Below the pieces are notes generated by a model. That model saw only the letters and a program-made list of their open reading frames with translations. It searched no databases and had not been told where the DNA came from. Below are positions 3,200 to 34,588 of a stretch of DNA of 34,588 nt, piece after piece. The stretch covers positions 1 to 34,588 of the IMG/VR virus record IMGVR_UViG_3300044821_000042; one strand, written 5' to 3'. The DNA is from a virus. The position numbers and the translations under genes are program-made. Positions within the stretch are counted from its first letter, which is position 1, and each line of letters opens with the position of its first letter.

Positions 3200-3390
3200 T
3201 TTAATTCTTCTTTCAAACATATAAGGCATTCGGCAATAACCCGAAACGCCCTTATACTTATACCCGGATCGTAATGCGCCAAATCCAGTAACTGGTCAAG
3301 CCTTGCAAACGCCCTGTTTAGTGCTTTTCCCTCATGCAAATGCTTAAACGCCCTTAGATCCTCAAGTTCCTTTTGTTCGGATTCCGTCAT
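3196..3390 (-). CDS. Hypothetical early protein (64 aa)
   Basis: Short helical protein (MTESEQKELEDLRAFKHL), coupled by 4-nt ATGA overlaps both to the Cro-like gene before it and to the 2870 gene after it. The N-terminal third is very acidic/basic and could form a coiled coil. No family recognised. Being the gene next to the Cro-like regulator, it could act in regulation, but this is only positional inference. Confidence 0.7.
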   Translation of the reverse strand: MTESEQKELEDLRAFKHLHEGKALNRAFARLDQLLDLAHYDPGISIRAFRVIAECLICLKEELK

Positions 3391-3572
3391 TTTTTCTTTT
3401 CATCCCACTCCGCTTTTAAAACTCCGTTGGTAATGCGCTCAATTTTTAATTGCGAGGCTTCAGGCACAAAGCCCCAACGTAACCAATTGCCAAGCGTTGC
3501 AGCGGACATACCCGTTACCTTATGAAAATTATATTGTGTTTTAAAAAACTTCTTCACTTCTTTAGGTTTCAT
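3387..3572 (-). CDS. cro-like: Cro-like helix-turn-helix regulator
   Basis: At 61 aa this is the size of P22 Cro and resembles it along its length: a helix-turn-helix at ~13-33 ending MSAATLGNWLRWG, then VPEASQLKIERITNGVLK, which parallels the IPE-A-RLE-T-GALK pattern of P22 Cro as I recall it. The expected role is a small dimeric DNA-binding repressor of the early promoters. It is the first gene of the leftward early operon. A 17-bp palindrome (3618-3634) lies directly upstream, covers the -35 box of its own promoter and sits within the facing rightward promoter, so it probably autoregulates. No separate CI-type repressor with a protease domain is present. Confidence 0.85.
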   Translation of the reverse strand: MKPKEVKKFFKTQYNFHKVTGMSAATLGNWLRWGFVPEASQLKIERITNGVLKAEWDEKKK

Positions 3573-4499: not shown

Positions 4500-5361
4500 C
4501 GCATTAACGACCCTTAACCAAAGTATGGTTATGTGGGAAGACAACAAAAAGCTCGAAGAGATACGCAAATTATTCGCCCCAAAGCTCACAGAGATGGAGT
4601 TCCAGTTCTTTGTAGGGCTTGGCAAGGCTTCAGGTTTAAATCCCTTCACGCGCGAAATTTGGTGCGTTAAATACGATGAGAAAGCCCCTGCGCAAGTATT
4701 TATCGGACGTGACGGATACAGGAAAGCGGCTCAAGCGCATAGCGAATATGATTATCACCAATCAGACGCGGTTTATGAGAATGATAAATTTGAAGTGATT
4801 AACGGGGAAGTAAAGCACTCTTATTCGTTAACCAACCGAGGTCAATTAATTGGCGCTTATTGTATAGCCAAGCGTCATAAATCATCACGTCCTTTGTATG
4901 TATTCGCGGAACTTAAAGAATACTCAACGGGTAAAAGCCTTTGGAACTCACAAAGCGGCAAGCCTGCAACGATGATTAAAAAGGTTGCTGAGAGCCAATG
5001 CCTGCGCGCATGCTTCCAAGACTTACTTGGTGGTACTTACGGCGAAGAGGAAATGGGCGAAGGCGCTGACCAACCGATGAACCGCCACAAAGAATCCAAA
5101 TCACAAAACCTGATGGATAAATTGCGTGCTGCAAAAGGTCAAGTTATTGACGCGGAGCCTGTTCATCATGAAGAAACTGGCGTGCTTGCATCAAGCGATG
5201 AACTTGAAGAAATACATGCGCTTTTAGCTGTTAAAGCATTTGATACAACCCGATTAAAAGGCGCAATGGAGCATTACAAAGTTGAAAAGCTAGCTGATTT
5301 AACAAGCGCCCAAGCTCAAGATTTTGTGACAATTTTAAACAAAACTGCAGATAAGGAATAG
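4492..5361 (+). CDS. bet-like: Bet/RecT-family single-strand annealing protein
   Basis: 289 aa with the Bet family core: LTEMEFQFFVGLGKASGLNPF (~25-44), EIWCVKY, then FIGRDGYRKAA (~71-81), and TMIKKVAESQCLRACF (~164-179) ahead of YGEEEM. Such proteins coat 3' single strands and anneal them, working with the exonuclease encoded just before. The C-terminal third is charged and variable, as usual. The start at 4492 has GAGGAG upstream and overlaps the exonuclease stop; a GTG at 4453 in the same frame is unlikely. The pair probably drives recombination-dependent concatemer formation for packaging. Confidence 0.92.
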   Translation: MSNALTTLNQSMVMWEDNKKLEEIRKLFAPKLTEMEFQFFVGLGKASGLNPFTREIWCVKYDEKAPAQVFIGRDGYRKAAQAHSEYDYHQSDAVYENDKFEVINGEVKHSYSLTNRGQLIGAYCIAKRHKSSRPLYVFAELKEYSTGKSLWNSQSGKPATMIKKVAESQCLRACFQDLLGGTYGEEEMGEGADQPMNRHKESKSQNLMDKLRAAKGQVIDAEPVHHEETGVLASSDELEEIHALLAVKAFDTTRLKGAMEHYKVEKLADLTSAQAQDFVTILNKTADKE

Positions 5362-5363
5362 AA

Positions 5364-5675
5364 ATGGCACGCTTAGATATTAAAACTTTGGTTTTAGCTT
5401 TTGAAAAACGGATCAATGAATTAGAAAAAAACCCACCAGAGCAAGTACCAACATCAGTGGTTTTGGTTCTTTTGGAAAAAGCAGTCGGCGAAGTAATAAC
5501 CGAGCATTTTCAAAATAATATCAAAGAGGAACTTAAACAAAGAGTCCGCGAGCAATTTGCGGAAAGCAAAGATAGATTTATAAATGAGGCGATTACAGAG
5601 GTTCTTGAGGACGAAGAATTTAAATTAAGAATGAGCAATCTTATAAAACATACTATCGAAAAGAATTTTTTATAA
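5364..5675 (+). CDS. Hypothetical early protein (103 aa), helical
   Basis: The gene begins 2 nt after the bet stop, with AAGGAAT just upstream. The product (MARLDIKTLVLAFEKRINEL) is rich in Glu, Lys and Leu over residues ~40-103, giving a likely coiled coil with no Cys and no membrane segment. No family recognised. Tight spacing to exonuclease and annealing genes suggests a DNA-processing accessory role, which is inference only. Confidence 0.75.
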   Translation: MARLDIKTLVLAFEKRINELEKNPPEQVPTSVVLVLLEKAVGEVITEHFQNNIKEELKQRVREQFAESKDRFINEAITEVLEDEEFKLRMSNLIKHTIEKNFL

Positions 5676-6794: not shown

Positions 6795-8549
6795 TTGAAA
6801 CAATTGCGTCCCTACCAGCACGAGGCTGTACAGGAATGCTGGCAAGCGTTACGTGAAAGTGATGCGCCAGTTTTGTTAATGGCAAGCGTAGGTGCTGGAA
6901 AAAGTTTAATGCTGGCATCAATATTGCATACCATGCAAAGGGTTGGTAAACGCGCTCTTTGCTTGGTTAATAACTCCGAGCTTGTCAGAAATAATTGCGA
7001 AACATTCATCCAGCAAGGCGGTCACGCTTCAATCTATTGTGCCGCCCTATCTTGCAAGGATTCATCTGCCCCCGTTGTTTTTGGTACGCCTCAATCGGTT
7101 TTAAATGGTATAAATAAAAACGAACCTATAGCCAACATACGCTTTAACATCATTGTGGTGGACGAAGCCCATGCCATTAATTACCTTAATCATCGCTCTG
7201 GATTTATGCGTATCTTGCGCCATTACAAGCAAGAATATTCCGATATGCGCCTGCTTGGAGCCACGGGTACAAATTTCAGATTCAAAGGAACTGCAATTGT
7301 CGGTGACGAATGCCTGTTTAAACGACAGGTCGGTAACATCACCACCGAGTCCCTTATCGACGCAGGGTATCTCATTGACCCAAACTTTGAGGTTGACCGC
7401 AACTTGGTAATCGACTTTTCAAAAGTCAAAATAAAACAAAACGGCCAATTTGACCAAAAGCAACTTGAAAAGGTCATTGATGAAAACACGCGCTTAACAG
7501 AGCTTATCTGTTATCAGATTATTCATATCATGAAAACCCAATCCAGATATGGGGTTTTTATCTTTGCCACCACCAAAAAACATGCTTTGGAAATAATGAC
7601 CCACTTACCGCCCGATGAAAGCGCGTTGATTTTAGGAGAGACACCGCAGGATGAACGAACAGATATCCTTAACAAAGCACGTACAGGACAAATCAAATAT
7701 TTGGTTAATATTGCTATTATTAGCGTGGGCGTTGATGTTCCTGCTTACGACACTATCGCTTACTTGCGACCCACAGAAAGCCTTGTCCTGCTTGTCCAAA
7801 CGATGGGCAGAGCATTGCGACTTTCAGATTCCACAGGCAAAACGTCCGCTTTGGTGCTTGACTTTGCAGGCAACATCGAACGACACAAAGATTGGGATAA
7901 TCCGATACTCTTAAAAGCTGTCAAACAAACTGACGAACCTGACAAGCCCAAAAAAATAATTTGTCCGCGATGCCAAGAACTCAATACTGATACGGCTCGC
8001 AGGTGTGTCGGGGTTCGTGAATATTCTGACAGACAGTCTGACAAGCTTGTCAAAGTGCGCTGCGATTATTATTTTGAGTTCAAAGAATGCCCAAATGAGG
8101 ACTGCAAATTAAAAAACGATATTGCCGCGCGTCACTGCCATACCTGTCAAACAGAAATCATTGATCCTAATAAAAAGCTAAATCTCAATAAAGTAACTAA
8201 TGACGACGTTTTGTTAAAGTATAATGTTATTAATGCAAAATACGCTATATCCGATACGCACACATCATTCCGGGTTAATTGCGTGTACCGTTGCAAAACC
8301 GAATCAGGCGCTATAAGAACCTTTTACGAATGCTATACCCCTTCAAGCGACAAGGCCAAGCACGTGTTTTACGGGCAATTCATTAAAAAGCATTGCAATA
8401 CTCCGTCTGATTGGTATAACCATTTGACTGACCGCGGGAAAATGGTCGACATGCTCAGCTTTGCCAACACGCCAGAGCAACTGTATATTAAAAAAGACGT
8501 TCAAGGTTATCGGATTAAGAAAAAGATTTTCAAGGAAGCAATTGCATGA
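6795..8549 (+). CDS. Superfamily 2 DEAH-box helicase with C-terminal zinc fingers
   Basis: The frame opens with TTG at 6795 behind AAAAGGA and encodes 584 aa. Helicase motifs are in order: a Q-like LRPYQHEAV (~4-12), Walker A SVGAGKS (31-37), DEAH (123-126), GATGT (155-159), VGVDVPAYD (~311-319) and QTMGRALR (335-342). After the two RecA folds comes a Cys-rich tract with pairs at C390/C393, C404/C423, C432/C437 and C448/C451, enough for two zinc sites, then a ~120-aa C-terminal domain of unknown fold. Such enzymes unwind or remodel branched DNA; in phages they serve replication and recombination. Downstream of exonuclease/Bet, a role in recombination-dependent replication is likely. It overlaps the next gene by 4 nt. 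Confidence 0.9.
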   Translation: MKQLRPYQHEAVQECWQALRESDAPVLLMASVGAGKSLMLASILHTMQRVGKRALCLVNNSELVRNNCETFIQQGGHASIYCAALSCKDSSAPVVFGTPQSVLNGINKNEPIANIRFNIIVVDEAHAINYLNHRSGFMRILRHYKQEYSDMRLLGATGTNFRFKGTAIVGDECLFKRQVGNITTESLIDAGYLIDPNFEVDRNLVIDFSKVKIKQNGQFDQKQLEKVIDENTRLTELICYQIIHIMKTQSRYGVFIFATTKKHALEIMTHLPPDESALILGETPQDERTDILNKARTGQIKYLVNIAIISVGVDVPAYDTIAYLRPTESLVLLVQTMGRALRLSDSTGKTSALVLDFAGNIERHKDWDNPILLKAVKQTDEPDKPKKIICPRCQELNTDTARRCVGVREYSDRQSDKLVKVRCDYYFEFKECPNEDCKLKNDIAARHCHTCQTEIIDPNKKLNLNKVTNDDVLLKYNVINAKYAISDTHTSFRVNCVYRCKTESGAIRTFYECYTPSSDKAKHVFYGQFIKKHCNTPSDWYNHLTDRGKMVDMLSFANTPEQLYIKKDVQGYRIKKKIFKEAIA

Positions 8550-8731
8550 ATACGGACAAAACCTTTTGCGCATCACCTAACTGCAAAAACGAATGCGGTC
8601 GCAAGATGAGCGACGAGCATCAATCAATCATTAAAAAAGGAGGCAATCCTTGGATATCTTACGCCTACTTTTGCGGTGAACCACCAAGCACGCAAGTTAC
8701 AAATAATTTCACATTTAAGGAAGAGCCATGA
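8546..8731 (+). CDS. Small Cys-rich protein (61 aa)
   Basis: Coupled by ATGA overlaps to the helicase before and the transglutaminase-like gene after. The N-terminus has C8, C13 and C17 (CASPNCKNECGR) with a further Cys at ~43, a possible single zinc site. The remaining sequence is polar. No family was recognised with certainty; a small zinc-binding partner of the helicase is conceivable but unsupported beyond position. Confidence 0.75.
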   Translation: MNTDKTFCASPNCKNECGRKMSDEHQSIIKKGGNPWISYAYFCGEPPSTQVTNNFTFKEEP

Positions 8732-9573
8732 AAAGGAATTTAAAACGATACGCTCTATTGAGTGCCGCGACCCTGTTTTCAATGTGCGGCATCTTATATG
8801 CCATGAACGACCCGTCCGTGAAACATTTCGTGAAACAAACGGTAACCGAATCGATAGGATTGCCCGTAGTTAACTTGGATACCATCAGCAAAGCCCACAT
8901 CATCAATTTGTCGGCCTCTAATAATATGGAATGGTTTGATAGGAAGTTTCTTGATGAGCCGCATATTTATACCTCAGATGACTTCTACCAACGCACGATG
9001 GATCATTACATTGAAATCAAAGACGACCTGTCACGTGAATGGAAGATAAGCGACGGCGACCTTTTGAAATCCCTTTATTTTATGAACGTCGTATCCAACA
9101 TGTGGGGTTATGGCAATAAAGGGCTTGATAAAAAAACGGGGTGTGCCTGTACCAATGAAATAAACGAGCACGCGTTTCCTTGCGAAACCCAATTTGTCGA
9201 AAACCCTGAAGCCTATATTTATACAAGAATCGGATGCTGCGCTGATTCAGCTCGCGTTTTAAAGTTTCTGTTAAGCAAAGCAGGCATCAAAAACAGGTAT
9301 ATGGCAAACCCCGGACATGTGTTTAATGATGTTTGGTTACAAGGTCACTGGCAATCGTTAGATGCAACGACCAACATGTGGTGGCGTGATTCTTGGGAAA
9401 ACATTCAAAACGCAGAAACACATTACAGTTTTAGCGTGACAATATTCCCAATGTATGGTGAAGTCCTAGGCCATGAATTTTATAGACCGTTTATTGGAAC
9501 GTTTCGCAATTACATGATTTTAGAATCGGTTTACAAGATGGCCAAGGATGTTAAGCACCCTGAAACTATATAA
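8728..9573 (+). CDS. Exported transglutaminase-like cysteine enzyme
   Basis: 281 aa. Residues ~7-26 form a hydrophobic segment after a basic start (MKRNLKRYALLSAATLFSM), so the protein is probably exported or anchored with its body in the periplasm. Residues ~165-215 match the transglutaminase-like core: GCCADSARVLKFLLSKAGI with C171, GHVFNDVW with H197 and WQSLDAT with D212, spaced as the Cys-His-Asp triad. Families with this fold include proteases, amidases and cross-linking enzymes, so the reaction cannot be named. Several other Cys (139, 141, 152, 170) could form disulfides or bind metal. It is the last gene of the rightward operon, coupled by a 4-nt overlap. A role in envelope modification, exclusion or lysis is inference. 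Confidence 0.8.
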   Translation: MKRNLKRYALLSAATLFSMCGILYAMNDPSVKHFVKQTVTESIGLPVVNLDTISKAHIINLSASNNMEWFDRKFLDEPHIYTSDDFYQRTMDHYIEIKDDLSREWKISDGDLLKSLYFMNVVSNMWGYGNKGLDKKTGCACTNEINEHAFPCETQFVENPEAYIYTRIGCCADSARVLKFLLSKAGIKNRYMANPGHVFNDVWLQGHWQSLDATTNMWWRDSWENIQNAETHYSFSVTIFPMYGEVLGHEFYRPFIGTFRNYMILESVYKMAKDVKHPETI

Positions 9574-9611
9574 AGTCTGGTTATTAGAATAATCAGACTT
9601 AGTGTGTTTTT
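9573..9611 (+). terminator. Terminator of the rightward early operon
   Basis: A 12-bp stem (9573-9584 with 9589-9600, one G-U pair) closes a TAGA loop and is followed by AGTGTGTTTTT on the plus strand. It separates convergent operons. The stem would also form in the leftward transcript. Confidence 0.85.
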
Positions 9612-9681: not shown

Positions 9682-10095
9682 TCAACAAATTGGCATTGAA
9701 TTGTACAGCTTTTTTGGTTCATTATCATCTCTATTTGCAATGTAATCTCTCAAATAGGTCAATATTATTTCTTTTGCCGCTTCAAAGCCCCAAACAGCAA
9801 CCGCAATGTACCCTCTTGCTGTTTTTCGCTTAATAAACTCCACCTGTTCGGGTAAAAGCTTACCCTTTCCAACTTTAAGCTCCACCCATAAACCGTGTGA
9901 ACCGTTTAATGGAATTGCTAAATGGAAGTCAAGCACGCCTTTTTTAACCCCCATGCGCTTAAGGGTTCGCCCTTCATTAAAGCTACACTTTCTCTCATTT
10001 GCAAAATGATGCAAATCATCCTCAAGCTCAGGGAACTTTTCGTTAAACCAGTTAATCGTATTTATGTGGTCTATTTGCTCAGGCTTTAAACTCAT
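9682..10095 (-). CDS. VRR-NUC family nuclease (137 aa)
   Basis: The stand-alone VRR-NUC fold shows GVLDFHLAI (D56), WVELKVG (E72, K74), then LLPEQVEFI (Q84) and GYIAVAVWGFEAA (~95-107). This is the PD-(D/E)xK arrangement of phage nucleases that may cleave branched DNA or act with terminase. The ATG at 10095 overlaps the lysozyme stop by 4 nt (ATGA); an in-frame ATG at 10155 inside lysozyme is unlikely. It is the last gene of the late operon, after the lysis genes, which is unusual for a replication-type nuclease and fits a late DNA-processing role. Confidence 0.88.
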   Translation of the reverse strand: MSLKPEQIDHINTINWFNEKFPELEDDLHHFANERKCSFNEGRTLKRMGVKKGVLDFHLAIPLNGSHGLWVELKVGKGKLLPEQVEFIKRKTARGYIAVAVWGFEAAKEIILTYLRDYIANRDDNEPKKLYNSMPIC

Positions 10096-10496
10096 GCACC
10101 CTCGCGTATCATAGAGGCCACGTCCTTTGCTCTTTGACCGACTTGCGTTGCCCATTTACTATCAAGCGCCTCAAGAGCGGCGTTCGTATAGTCCTTATTG
10201 ATTAAGGCCGTTATCATTTTCTTGAACCCGGTAAGACGATGAATTCCTATATTGAAACACATATTCATCAAAGCCATCTTAACGTTATCGGGTTGAATCA
10301 AATACCAGCTGTATTGGGATAAATCTTTTTCGCATCGAGCCAAATCATTATCCAGCATAAATTCGGCCTCGGCTGCGGATATACCAAGGTCATCAATATT
10401 TCTCCCATATCCTATGGTTACTTTTCCAACAGTATCTAAATAGGGAAAAGCACGAAATCCTTCACATTTTTTTATCCAGTCCTTTAAATCTTGCAT
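10092..10496 (-). CDS. Endolysin, T4-type lysozyme (GH24)
   Basis: 134 aa, with the GH24 signature CEGFRAFPYLDTVGKVTIGYG starting at C11. The catalytic E12, D21 and T27 have the classic E-8-D-5-T spacing. It cleaves the glycan backbone of peptidoglycan for host lysis. The size is slightly short of typical (~145-165 aa). No signal or SAR segment is present, so release should need a holin; the one-helix membrane protein at 10665..10823 is the only candidate nearby. Confidence 0.95.
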   Translation of the reverse strand: MQDLKDWIKKCEGFRAFPYLDTVGKVTIGYGRNIDDLGISAAEAEFMLDNDLARCEKDLSQYSWYLIQPDNVKMALMNMCFNIGIHRLTGFKKMITALINKDYTNAALEALDSKWATQVGQRAKDVASMIREGA

Positions 10497-31283: not shown

Positions 31284-31625
31284 CTATTCCACCAATTTTC
31301 CAAGCAATAATTTTTCGACAACGGACTCAAGTTTTTTATTGTCGTCTTGGTCAGCTGTTCGCCATCTACCACGCGTTTTAAGCCAAAAGACCTGCGCTGA
31401 TAAGTCGTCTTGATTAACGGCTTTATTATACAAAGCACGCGCCACCTGTGCGTTTGCCTTAATAACCGCCGTGTCTAATTCATGCCGATAGTATTTCGCA
31501 AGCGTGTCAACGCATATGCCTAAATACTTGGCCACTTCTTCTTGAGTATTTCCAAAGCTCGTAAGAGCTAAGACTTCCGCGCGGCTTTTTTCCGTCGGAA
31601 CATGGGGAGTCGGGTCTGGCATCAT
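31284..31625 (-). CDS. terS: Terminase small subunit (113 aa)
   Basis: An N-terminal helix-turn-helix (~15-45, KSRAEVLALTSFGNTQEEVA followed by KYLGICVDTLAKYYRHELD) is followed by KANAQVARALYNKAVNQDDL and a C-terminal helix. This is the usual layout of small terminases that recognise the packaging site. ATG 31625 overlaps the methyltransferase stop (ATGA). The product is short relative to P22 gp3 (162 aa). Confidence 0.88.
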   Translation of the reverse strand: MMPDPTPHVPTEKSRAEVLALTSFGNTQEEVAKYLGICVDTLAKYYRHELDTAVIKANAQVARALYNKAVNQDDLSAQVFWLKTRGRWRTADQDDNKKLESVVEKLLLGKLVE

Positions 31626-32827
31626 GCCTCCAATATCGCTTTATTTCCGCTATAGTTCTCGTATCGCTTTATAATAACATCGCAGTATTTTGGATCAATC
31701 TCCATCATTAAAGCGCGTCTTTTGGTTTTTTCGCAAGCTACCATCAAAGTGCCTGAACCTGCAAACGGATCGTAAACGTACTCTCCCGGGTTCGTATGAT
31801 GGTTAATTGAACGAATAAACAATTCAGCAGGCTTTTGTGTTGGATGCGCCGTTTTATCCTTCTCGTATACAACGCTAGGAACGTCCCAAACGGTCATTTG
31901 GGTTCGTCCTCCTTTCCAGTTTCTTTCGCCTTCCTTTTTGACAGCATACCAACAAGGCTCATGCTTCCAATGATAGTCAGAACGCGATAAAGCGTGGACG
32001 TTCTTATTCCAAATAATTTGCTGCTTAATATCAAAGCCTGCGCGACGTAAACCGTCCATAACCACGTCTGTAAAGCTTGAGGCATGCCAGACATAGGCCA
32101 CAGAACCTGTAAATAGCACATAAGCGTCAAACCAATCAGCTTCATCATCGTTTTGAAGGTTTGAGTTCTCTTCGCGCTTGGTTTTTTTAACACCCTTTGC
32201 TTTCGCACGCCAGTCCGCTTCATACTTCACCCCATAAGGTGGATCGGTAATCATCGTATTGGGAGCTTGCCCGTTCATCAGCTTATCAACATCCGTTTGA
32301 ACGGTGCTGCTGCCACAAAGCAAACGGTGATTGCCTAAAACCCAAACGTCTCCGGGTTTCGTTATAGGCTCCTCTGGAAGTTGCGGAACTTCATCATCGC
32401 CGCAAAACGCTTCAAATTCATCTTGCGGTAAGATATCGCAAAGCTCTTCAATTCCAAACCCTGTTAATTCTAAGTTATAGTCGAAGCCTTTCAGATATTC
32501 AAATTGGTCGCGCAAAATATCAAAATCCCATCCTGCGTTTAACGCCAATTTATTGTCGGCAATGACTAAAGCAGCCTTTTGGGGTTCGGACAAATCGTCA
32601 ATGATGATGCAAGGCACTTTAGTTAGCCCAAGGAGGATGGACGCTTCTAAACGGCAATGCCCTGCAATAATGGTCTTGTTTTCGTCAACAAGAATGGGGT
32701 TTGTAAAGCCAAATTCTTTGATTGAATTAATCACCTGTTGTATTTGGTCAGGTGAATGAGTTCGGGAATTGGCCTTAAACTTGACCAATTCCTGAACAGA
32801 TATTTCTTTATAATCCCGAAGCGACAT
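31622..32827 (-). CDS. ParB-domain / DNA methyltransferase fusion (401 aa)
   Basis: Residues ~8-130 are a ParB/sulfiredoxin-like nuclease domain (VDENKTIIAGHCRLEASILL; GHCRLEA at ~56-62). Residues ~190-395 are an amino-methyltransferase of the beta class: DPPY (195-198) comes before HPTQKP (328-333) and DPFAGSGT (353-360). The order and motif predict N6-adenine or N4-cytosine methylation. ParB-methyltransferase fusions are common in phages and may protect phage DNA from restriction or mark DNA for packaging. It is the first large gene of the late operon, coupled to terS by a 4-nt overlap. Confidence 0.93.
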   Translation of the reverse strand: MSLRDYKEISVQELVKFKANSRTHSPDQIQQVINSIKEFGFTNPILVDENKTIIAGHCRLEASILLGLTKVPCIIIDDLSEPQKAALVIADNKLALNAGWDFDILRDQFEYLKGFDYNLELTGFGIEELCDILPQDEFEAFCGDDEVPQLPEEPITKPGDVWVLGNHRLLCGSSTVQTDVDKLMNGQAPNTMITDPPYGVKYEADWRAKAKGVKKTKREENSNLQNDDEADWFDAYVLFTGSVAYVWHASSFTDVVMDGLRRAGFDIKQQIIWNKNVHALSRSDYHWKHEPCWYAVKKEGERNWKGGRTQMTVWDVPSVVYEKDKTAHPTQKPAELFIRSINHHTNPGEYVYDPFAGSGTLMVACEKTKRRALMMEIDPKYCDVIIKRYENYSGNKAILEA

Positions 32828-34340: not shown

Positions 34341-34588
34341 ATCCATTCCTCATACGTTAAAGCAATTGAGTCGCTTGGAATCAATTTGAAAAATATGTCG
34401 TTCTTAAATTGGGATAAGTAAGCATTGTATTCAATTGTAAACGGTAAAGCGGTGCGCTTTTGACCTTGATGTGTGTCAACTTGAGGGTAATTTTCTGGTT
34501 TTTCTCTTTTTAACCAATCAATAAATTTCTTTTTTGTAGCCCATAAACTTTTTTGCTCATAATGGTCTCTGCAACTTTCAAATATTTC
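34298..34588 (-). CDS. Winged-helix replication initiator, 3' part (continues from 1..775)
   Basis: This is the C-terminal end of the same 312-aa protein, in frame with 775..1 once the duplicated 127 bases are merged. It runs through TLKE-like charged helices to KRTALPFTIEYNAYL and ends in a TAG at 34300-34298. The first 127 nt are the same bases as the left end of the window. Here it is shown as a partial gene only because the circle is cut at this point. Confidence 0.8.
   Translation of the reverse strand, partial: EIFESCRDHYEQKSLWATKKKFIDWLKREKPENYPQVDTHQGQKRTALPFTIEYNAYLSQFKNDIFFKLIPSDSIALTYEEWICLQEKNAKKSSLG
34462..34588. repeat. Terminal direct repeat, right copy
   Basis: Exact duplicate of bases 1-127. 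Removing one copy gives a 34,461-bp circle with an unbroken replication gene across the join. Confidence 0.95.

Follow-up and report, generated by a model that had tools for sequence, protein, structure and literature searches.

Both LapG and HvyA are cysteine proteases of the transglutaminase-like type that reside in the periplasm, and LapG cleaves an adhesin (PMC4241560). HvyA, a BTLCP of Caulobacter crescentus, is an exported protein of 272 amino acids with a transglutaminase-like domain, and its gene lies in a capsule-export locus (PMC4241560). The catalytic triad of HvyA is needed to suppress the capsule, so that cells are sensitive to phage phiCr30 (PMC4241560). In the open-licence literature that we searched, no transglutaminase-like phage exclusion factor was found. 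The phage gene described here encodes a protein for which sequence and model together support membership of the transglutaminase superfamily of cysteine enzymes.

The window, that is, the complete stretch of 34,588 nucleotides analyzed (IMG/VR record IMGVR_UViG_3300044821_000042), has a direct terminal repeat of 127 bases (1-127 and 34462-34588 are identical), which indicates that the record is probably circular, with a length of ~34.46 kb, or terminally redundant. Early-type genes for an exonuclease, a RecT-like annealing protein and a helicase are on the + strand, and the resolvase, endolysin, tail, scaffold, capsid, portal, and terminase genes are on the - strand. The portal and capsid proteins are 25–29% identical to those of phages that include Shewanella phage X14 and several Vibrio phages of 33–37 kb. 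The features surrounding the gene of interest are as follows.

6795..8549, + strand: DNA helicase (phrog_16, E=1.9e-75), the left border of the slot discussed below
8546..8731, + strand: 61-aa Cys-containing ORF, function not assigned, with ATGA overlaps to both the helicase and the enzyme gene
8728..9573, + strand: predicted transglutaminase-fold cysteine enzyme, 281 aa, with a hydrophobic segment at residues ~8-26 and Cys171, His197, and Asp212
9196..9366, + strand: match to Transglut_core, the catalytic core (residues 157-213)
9573..9600, no strand: 28-bp hairpin AAGTCTGGTTATTAGAATAATCAGACTT directly after the enzyme stop, a likely terminator between convergent operons
9682..10155, - strand: Holliday-junction-resolvase-like gene (phrog_824 / phrog_5702), the right border of the slot
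10092..10496, - strand: endolysin (lysozyme; phrog_7, E=2.9e-22)

The enzyme was identified as transglutaminase-like in the initial annotation, and several weak but consistent lines of evidence support this assignment. The Pfam Transglut_core profile aligned to residues 157-213 with a score just under its curated cut-off (20.1–21.8 bits vs 23). E-values for the phage protein and its relatives were 7.8e-4 (phage protein), 3.2e-4 (a relative with 74% identity, which at 23.1 bits scored just over the cut-off in a genome-level search), 1.8e-3, 2.8e-6 (a more distant homologue), and 2.5e-3 (homologue G520); homologue G098 scored 28 bits. The proposed triad of Cys171, His197, and Asp212 is complete and invariant across six homologues. 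Only 10 alignment columns are invariant in these six sequences, which are as little as 20% identical, and the three triad positions are included, such that conservation of the triad in the alignment is beyond chance. The neighboring residue, C170, is also a cysteine; we take C171 to be the catalytic one because the alignment places it at this position. No family for the enzyme was found in PHROGs, a BFVD fold search returned nothing significant, and NCBIfam gave only one sub-threshold chance match.

Structure prediction and fold searches gave a similar picture. The AlphaFold model built from six sequences had a mean pLDDT of 72.5, with the core mostly at 80–96 (the first model, built from four sequences, reached 61), and the papain-like core is retained in the predicted fold. 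In the model, a helix (171-184) that has the cysteine as its first residue is followed by a strand (189-194), a strand starting with the histidine (197-204), and a strand ending with the aspartate (207-212). Nearly all top rows of the VIA-align search were transglutaminases, PNGases, arylamine N-acetyltransferases, the amide synthase GdmF, and vasohibins, with a best Z of 8.3 for the six-sequence model and 7.8 for the first model. Foldseek E-values were weak (best 0.03, likewise for a superfamily member), and comparison of the sequence profile with PDB sequences returned superfamily members only, also with weak E-values. A Z near 8 is weak alone, but we assign the fold because the uniform match list, the profile match, and the triad all agree.

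The protein begins with MKRNLKRY followed by ~17 hydrophobic residues, resembling a Sec signal or an anchor, and AlphaFold places a helix at residues 2-26. These features support the N-terminal export or anchor segment proposed previously, and the enzyme is likely to be exported or anchored. We say only likely because hydropathy of the segment is moderate (1.62); that of the 74% relative falls below a simple cut-off. A lipoprotein was considered and rejected: Cys20 lies in FSMC-G, which departs from a canonical lipobox, and the corresponding position of the relative is not a cysteine. Synonymous sites are saturated between the two phage copies of the gene (pS about 0.84–0.85), and pN drops from 0.48 upstream of codon 50 to 0.11 downstream, compared with 0.20 for the core helicase. 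Strong purifying selection thus acts on the catalytic domain, whose constraint equals or exceeds that of a core replication protein, whereas the N-terminal segment is free to vary, keeping only its character. The basic and hydrophobic character of this segment persists in the homologues examined even though the sequence itself changes fast, which argues against a function in the virion or as an injected protein, or as a cytosolic host-takeover factor, in which the N-terminal segment would not be an export signal. The gene is also located away from the structural genes, and we regard such a role as improbable even though its early-strand position and ATGA coupling to the helicase gene in this phage would suit it.

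The enzyme ORF is real, running from ATG to TAA. It starts 4 bases before the end of the 61-aa ORF, which has no family match and itself overlaps the helicase stop by ATGA. Given these overlaps, all three reading frames (helicase, 61-aa ORF, and enzyme) very likely share a single mRNA in this genome. The coupling suggests that the enzyme gene is read through from upstream, and no promoter of its own was found that is clearly above chance. Placement in an early operon with recombination genes, as originally described, thus holds for this genome but does not characterize the gene as such. In its nearest relative, the phage genome G002 (IMGVR_UViG_3300037188_000016), the gene is found in the same interval in the inverted orientation on the late strand, after a ParA cassette. 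The two genomes are collinear across nearly all shared genes except for the enzyme gene, which is inverted relative to its neighbors; in G002, where it is on the endolysin strand, ParA, 68-aa, and 80-aa genes precede it and tRNA-Tyr comes next. The G002 protein is 74% identical and was the only close relative found. A ParB-like/DNA methyltransferase gene (31622-32827) near the terminase genes of the window had no matched counterpart in G002.

Using the helicase as a guide, 36 further contigs were recovered, 31 of which have both borders of the slot (some are near-duplicates). The helicase-resolvase interval ranges from -4 to 5115 bases across these 31 contigs, and its contents vary, with many small ORFs, ParA, IS66 genes (TnpB, PF05717), and signal-peptide proteins. 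Proteins with signal peptides evident by eye were present in L100, L109/L110, L114/L123, and L117. As judged from gene content and these apparent signals, the interval is a cargo site of variable makeup in which genes for exported proteins turn up repeatedly. Together with the inversion in G002, this means that the early-strand orientation is not fixed. The enzyme gene is absent from all 31 related slots, and a tblastn search of phage and plasmid collections uncovered no real relatives. The known phage copies number just two. Like cargo (moron) genes, the enzyme gene occurs sporadically and at a variable site.

Several other elements of the slot were noted. A ParA-like ATPase gene is present in three loci (L002, which is G002, at 4844-5476; L101; and L126), a sign that some members of the phage group may be maintained like plasmids. 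Thirteen related contigs (L095, L097, L098, L101, L102, L104, L105, L106, L107, L115, L116, L118, and L130) carry a conserved palindrome, AAGTCTGATTAT...ATAATCAGACTT, or half of it, between helicase and resolvase, related to the hairpin at 9573-9600; apparently located between the convergent operons, it may be a terminator or a recombination site. In L117, 1343 to 2761 bases past the helicase end and beside IS66-type genes, the slot encodes a protein of 472 aa whose N-terminus is signal-like; it belongs to no Pfam family and contains the Cys-containing motif KCGKFRCDTFV. The phage-borne tRNA-Tyr of G002 (L002 6898-6983) lies beside the enzyme gene. It was considered as a host attachment site and discarded: the longer matches in 143 Legionella-related genomes were only ~70–77% identical, with no host copy found among them.

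We also looked for indications of lysogeny. A P22 Cro-like repressor is encoded at 3387-3572, just below the family cut-off. Tyrosine integrase genes were found neither in this phage nor in 13 other records (the control was positive in 14/14 genomes), and no capsid-gene match was detected in the 143 Legionella-related genomes, a result that is uninformative alone. A prophage state was rejected on these grounds, and lysogenic conversion is not supported.

Bacterial homologues bear on what the enzyme may act on. A pattern scan of GTDB yielded one clear homologue, G001, with 37–38% identity, in the MAG "Legionella sp. FW.3.37" (L003 9782-10816). It is bordered by a partial Mutator-type transposase ORF on one side and a polysaccharide flippase (PF13440) on the other, and the locus also contains asparagine synthase, glycosyltransferase, and nucleotide-sugar genes. 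A second homologue, G098 (26% identity), was found among 143 genomes of the same order, flanked by two ATP-grasp proteins, an amidotransferase, and a ComA-like phosphosulfolactate synthase. Reading the translations, we found a nucleotide-sugar dehydrogenase, an oxidoreductase, and a hexapeptide transferase common to both loci. The two homologues from these Legionella-related genomes thus both lie inside surface-polysaccharide loci. The phosphosulfolactate synthase gene (ComA; L011 14366-15115) near the polysaccharide-type locus of G098 is unusual for an O-antigen-type cluster. A phylum-wide sample added G520, adjoining a group 1 glycosyltransferase, and G538, whose neighbor is a large protein with no Pfam match. 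All four proteins have N-terminal hydrophobic segments. Three weaker candidates (G799, G867, and G864) matched over only ~50 positions (E 5e-5 to 3e-4); the G867 and G864 regions, which resemble common cytosolic alpha-E/transglutaminase operons, were not used. By these genomic contexts, taken from two clear and two distant homologues, the phage enzyme appears to belong to a small, largely uncharacterized group whose bacterial members are in O-antigen or surface-polysaccharide loci.

This context favors envelope modification, one of the activities originally suggested for the enzyme, and bears on two alternatives. Action on peptidoglycan crosslinks, also suggested originally, finds no specific support. 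An enzyme that cuts or makes peptide cross-links, or otherwise aids lysis, would fit a gene that adjoins the resolvase/endolysin operon and is on the late strand in G002. We nevertheless think it very unlikely: the phage already has a lysozyme endolysin, related phages that lack the enzyme retain theirs, Pfam identified no cell-wall-binding domain, and the bacterial homologues are in glycan-coat rather than cell-wall loci. A second alternative is an envelope protease like LapG or HvyA that hydrolyzes, in the periplasm, a surface adhesin, a receptor, or an export protein, leading to receptor loss or cell dispersal with no glycan as substrate. The superfamily and triad order are those of LapG and HvyA, and sequence cannot tell the chemistry. 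On the other hand, the homologues are found among polysaccharide genes and not adhesin or secretion genes, and the BTLCP family gave no Pfam match at E<=1 for the phage enzyme or at E<=0.5 for three homologues. We regard an envelope protease as a fairly unlikely reading.

Our leading explanation, held tentatively and at somewhat less than even confidence, is that the gene encodes a horizontally acquired, periplasm-facing transglutaminase-fold enzyme that modifies a surface glycan or the process that assembles it and in doing so probably changes how phages adsorb. After infection, the enzyme would become lodged in the inner membrane, its catalytic domain facing outward. Cys171, assisted by His197 and Asp212, would attack an acyl or amide group to form a thioester. 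The acceptor of the acyl group would then be either an amine, as for transglutaminases and amide synthases, or water, as for proteases of the HvyA/LapG type. The enzyme may target a surface glycan while it is in transit, or else a protein involved in assembling that glycan, and the altered coat could change adsorption such that a second phage is excluded or progeny are released without re-binding. We prefer such an effect during infection to lysogenic conversion because no lysogeny genes were found beyond the Cro-like repressor. A block to superinfection, as proposed initially, is plausible. In a more specific and rather doubtful version, an acyltransferase derived from polysaccharide loci would covalently remodel the host glycan by amide transfer and block adsorption of other phages. 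A glycan-directed transamidase acting as a phage exclusion factor is chemistry not described for phages in the open-licence papers searched. If the leading explanation is correct, the almost unstudied transglutaminase-like proteins of bacterial polysaccharide loci would be tied to competition between phage and host at the cell surface, and the phage protein would offer a single compact enzyme in which to ask the substrate question. Further surface-active genes can be sought in the cargo slot identified here, which belongs to a group of small phage genomes that is abundant but uncultured.

Compared with the superfamily profile (PF01841), the phage enzyme has an aligned core with its Cys, His, and Asp, and its predicted fold matches transglutaminases, PNGase, NAT, and GdmF. 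It differs in scoring under the Pfam cut-off and in having an unmatched region between the anchor and the core as well as an unmatched Cys-rich insert (residues 139-152). The Legionella sp. FW.3.37 protein resembles it across the whole soluble domain, with the same triad and C-terminus, but is chromosomal, has three predicted membrane segments instead of one, and is missing part of the Cys-rich insert. With superinfection-exclusion and other cargo genes, the phage gene shares accessory status, location in a variable interval, independence of core functions, and an apparent envelope protein as its product. HvyA has a Cys-His-Asp triad with the same 15-residue His-Asp spacing, and its surface-polysaccharide export locus parallels the loci of the enzyme's bacterial homologues. 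Its Cys-His spacing is 34 instead of 26, its gene is a chromosomal one tied to the cell cycle, and the protein carries a Sec signal but lacks a membrane anchor. At best it is a distant superfamily member relative to the phage enzyme, and because the BTLCP family did not match, we view it as a precedent for mode of action and not as evidence of membership. HvyA activity prevents capsule formation and makes cells phage-sensitive, not resistant, so the effect on adsorption proposed here could go in either direction.
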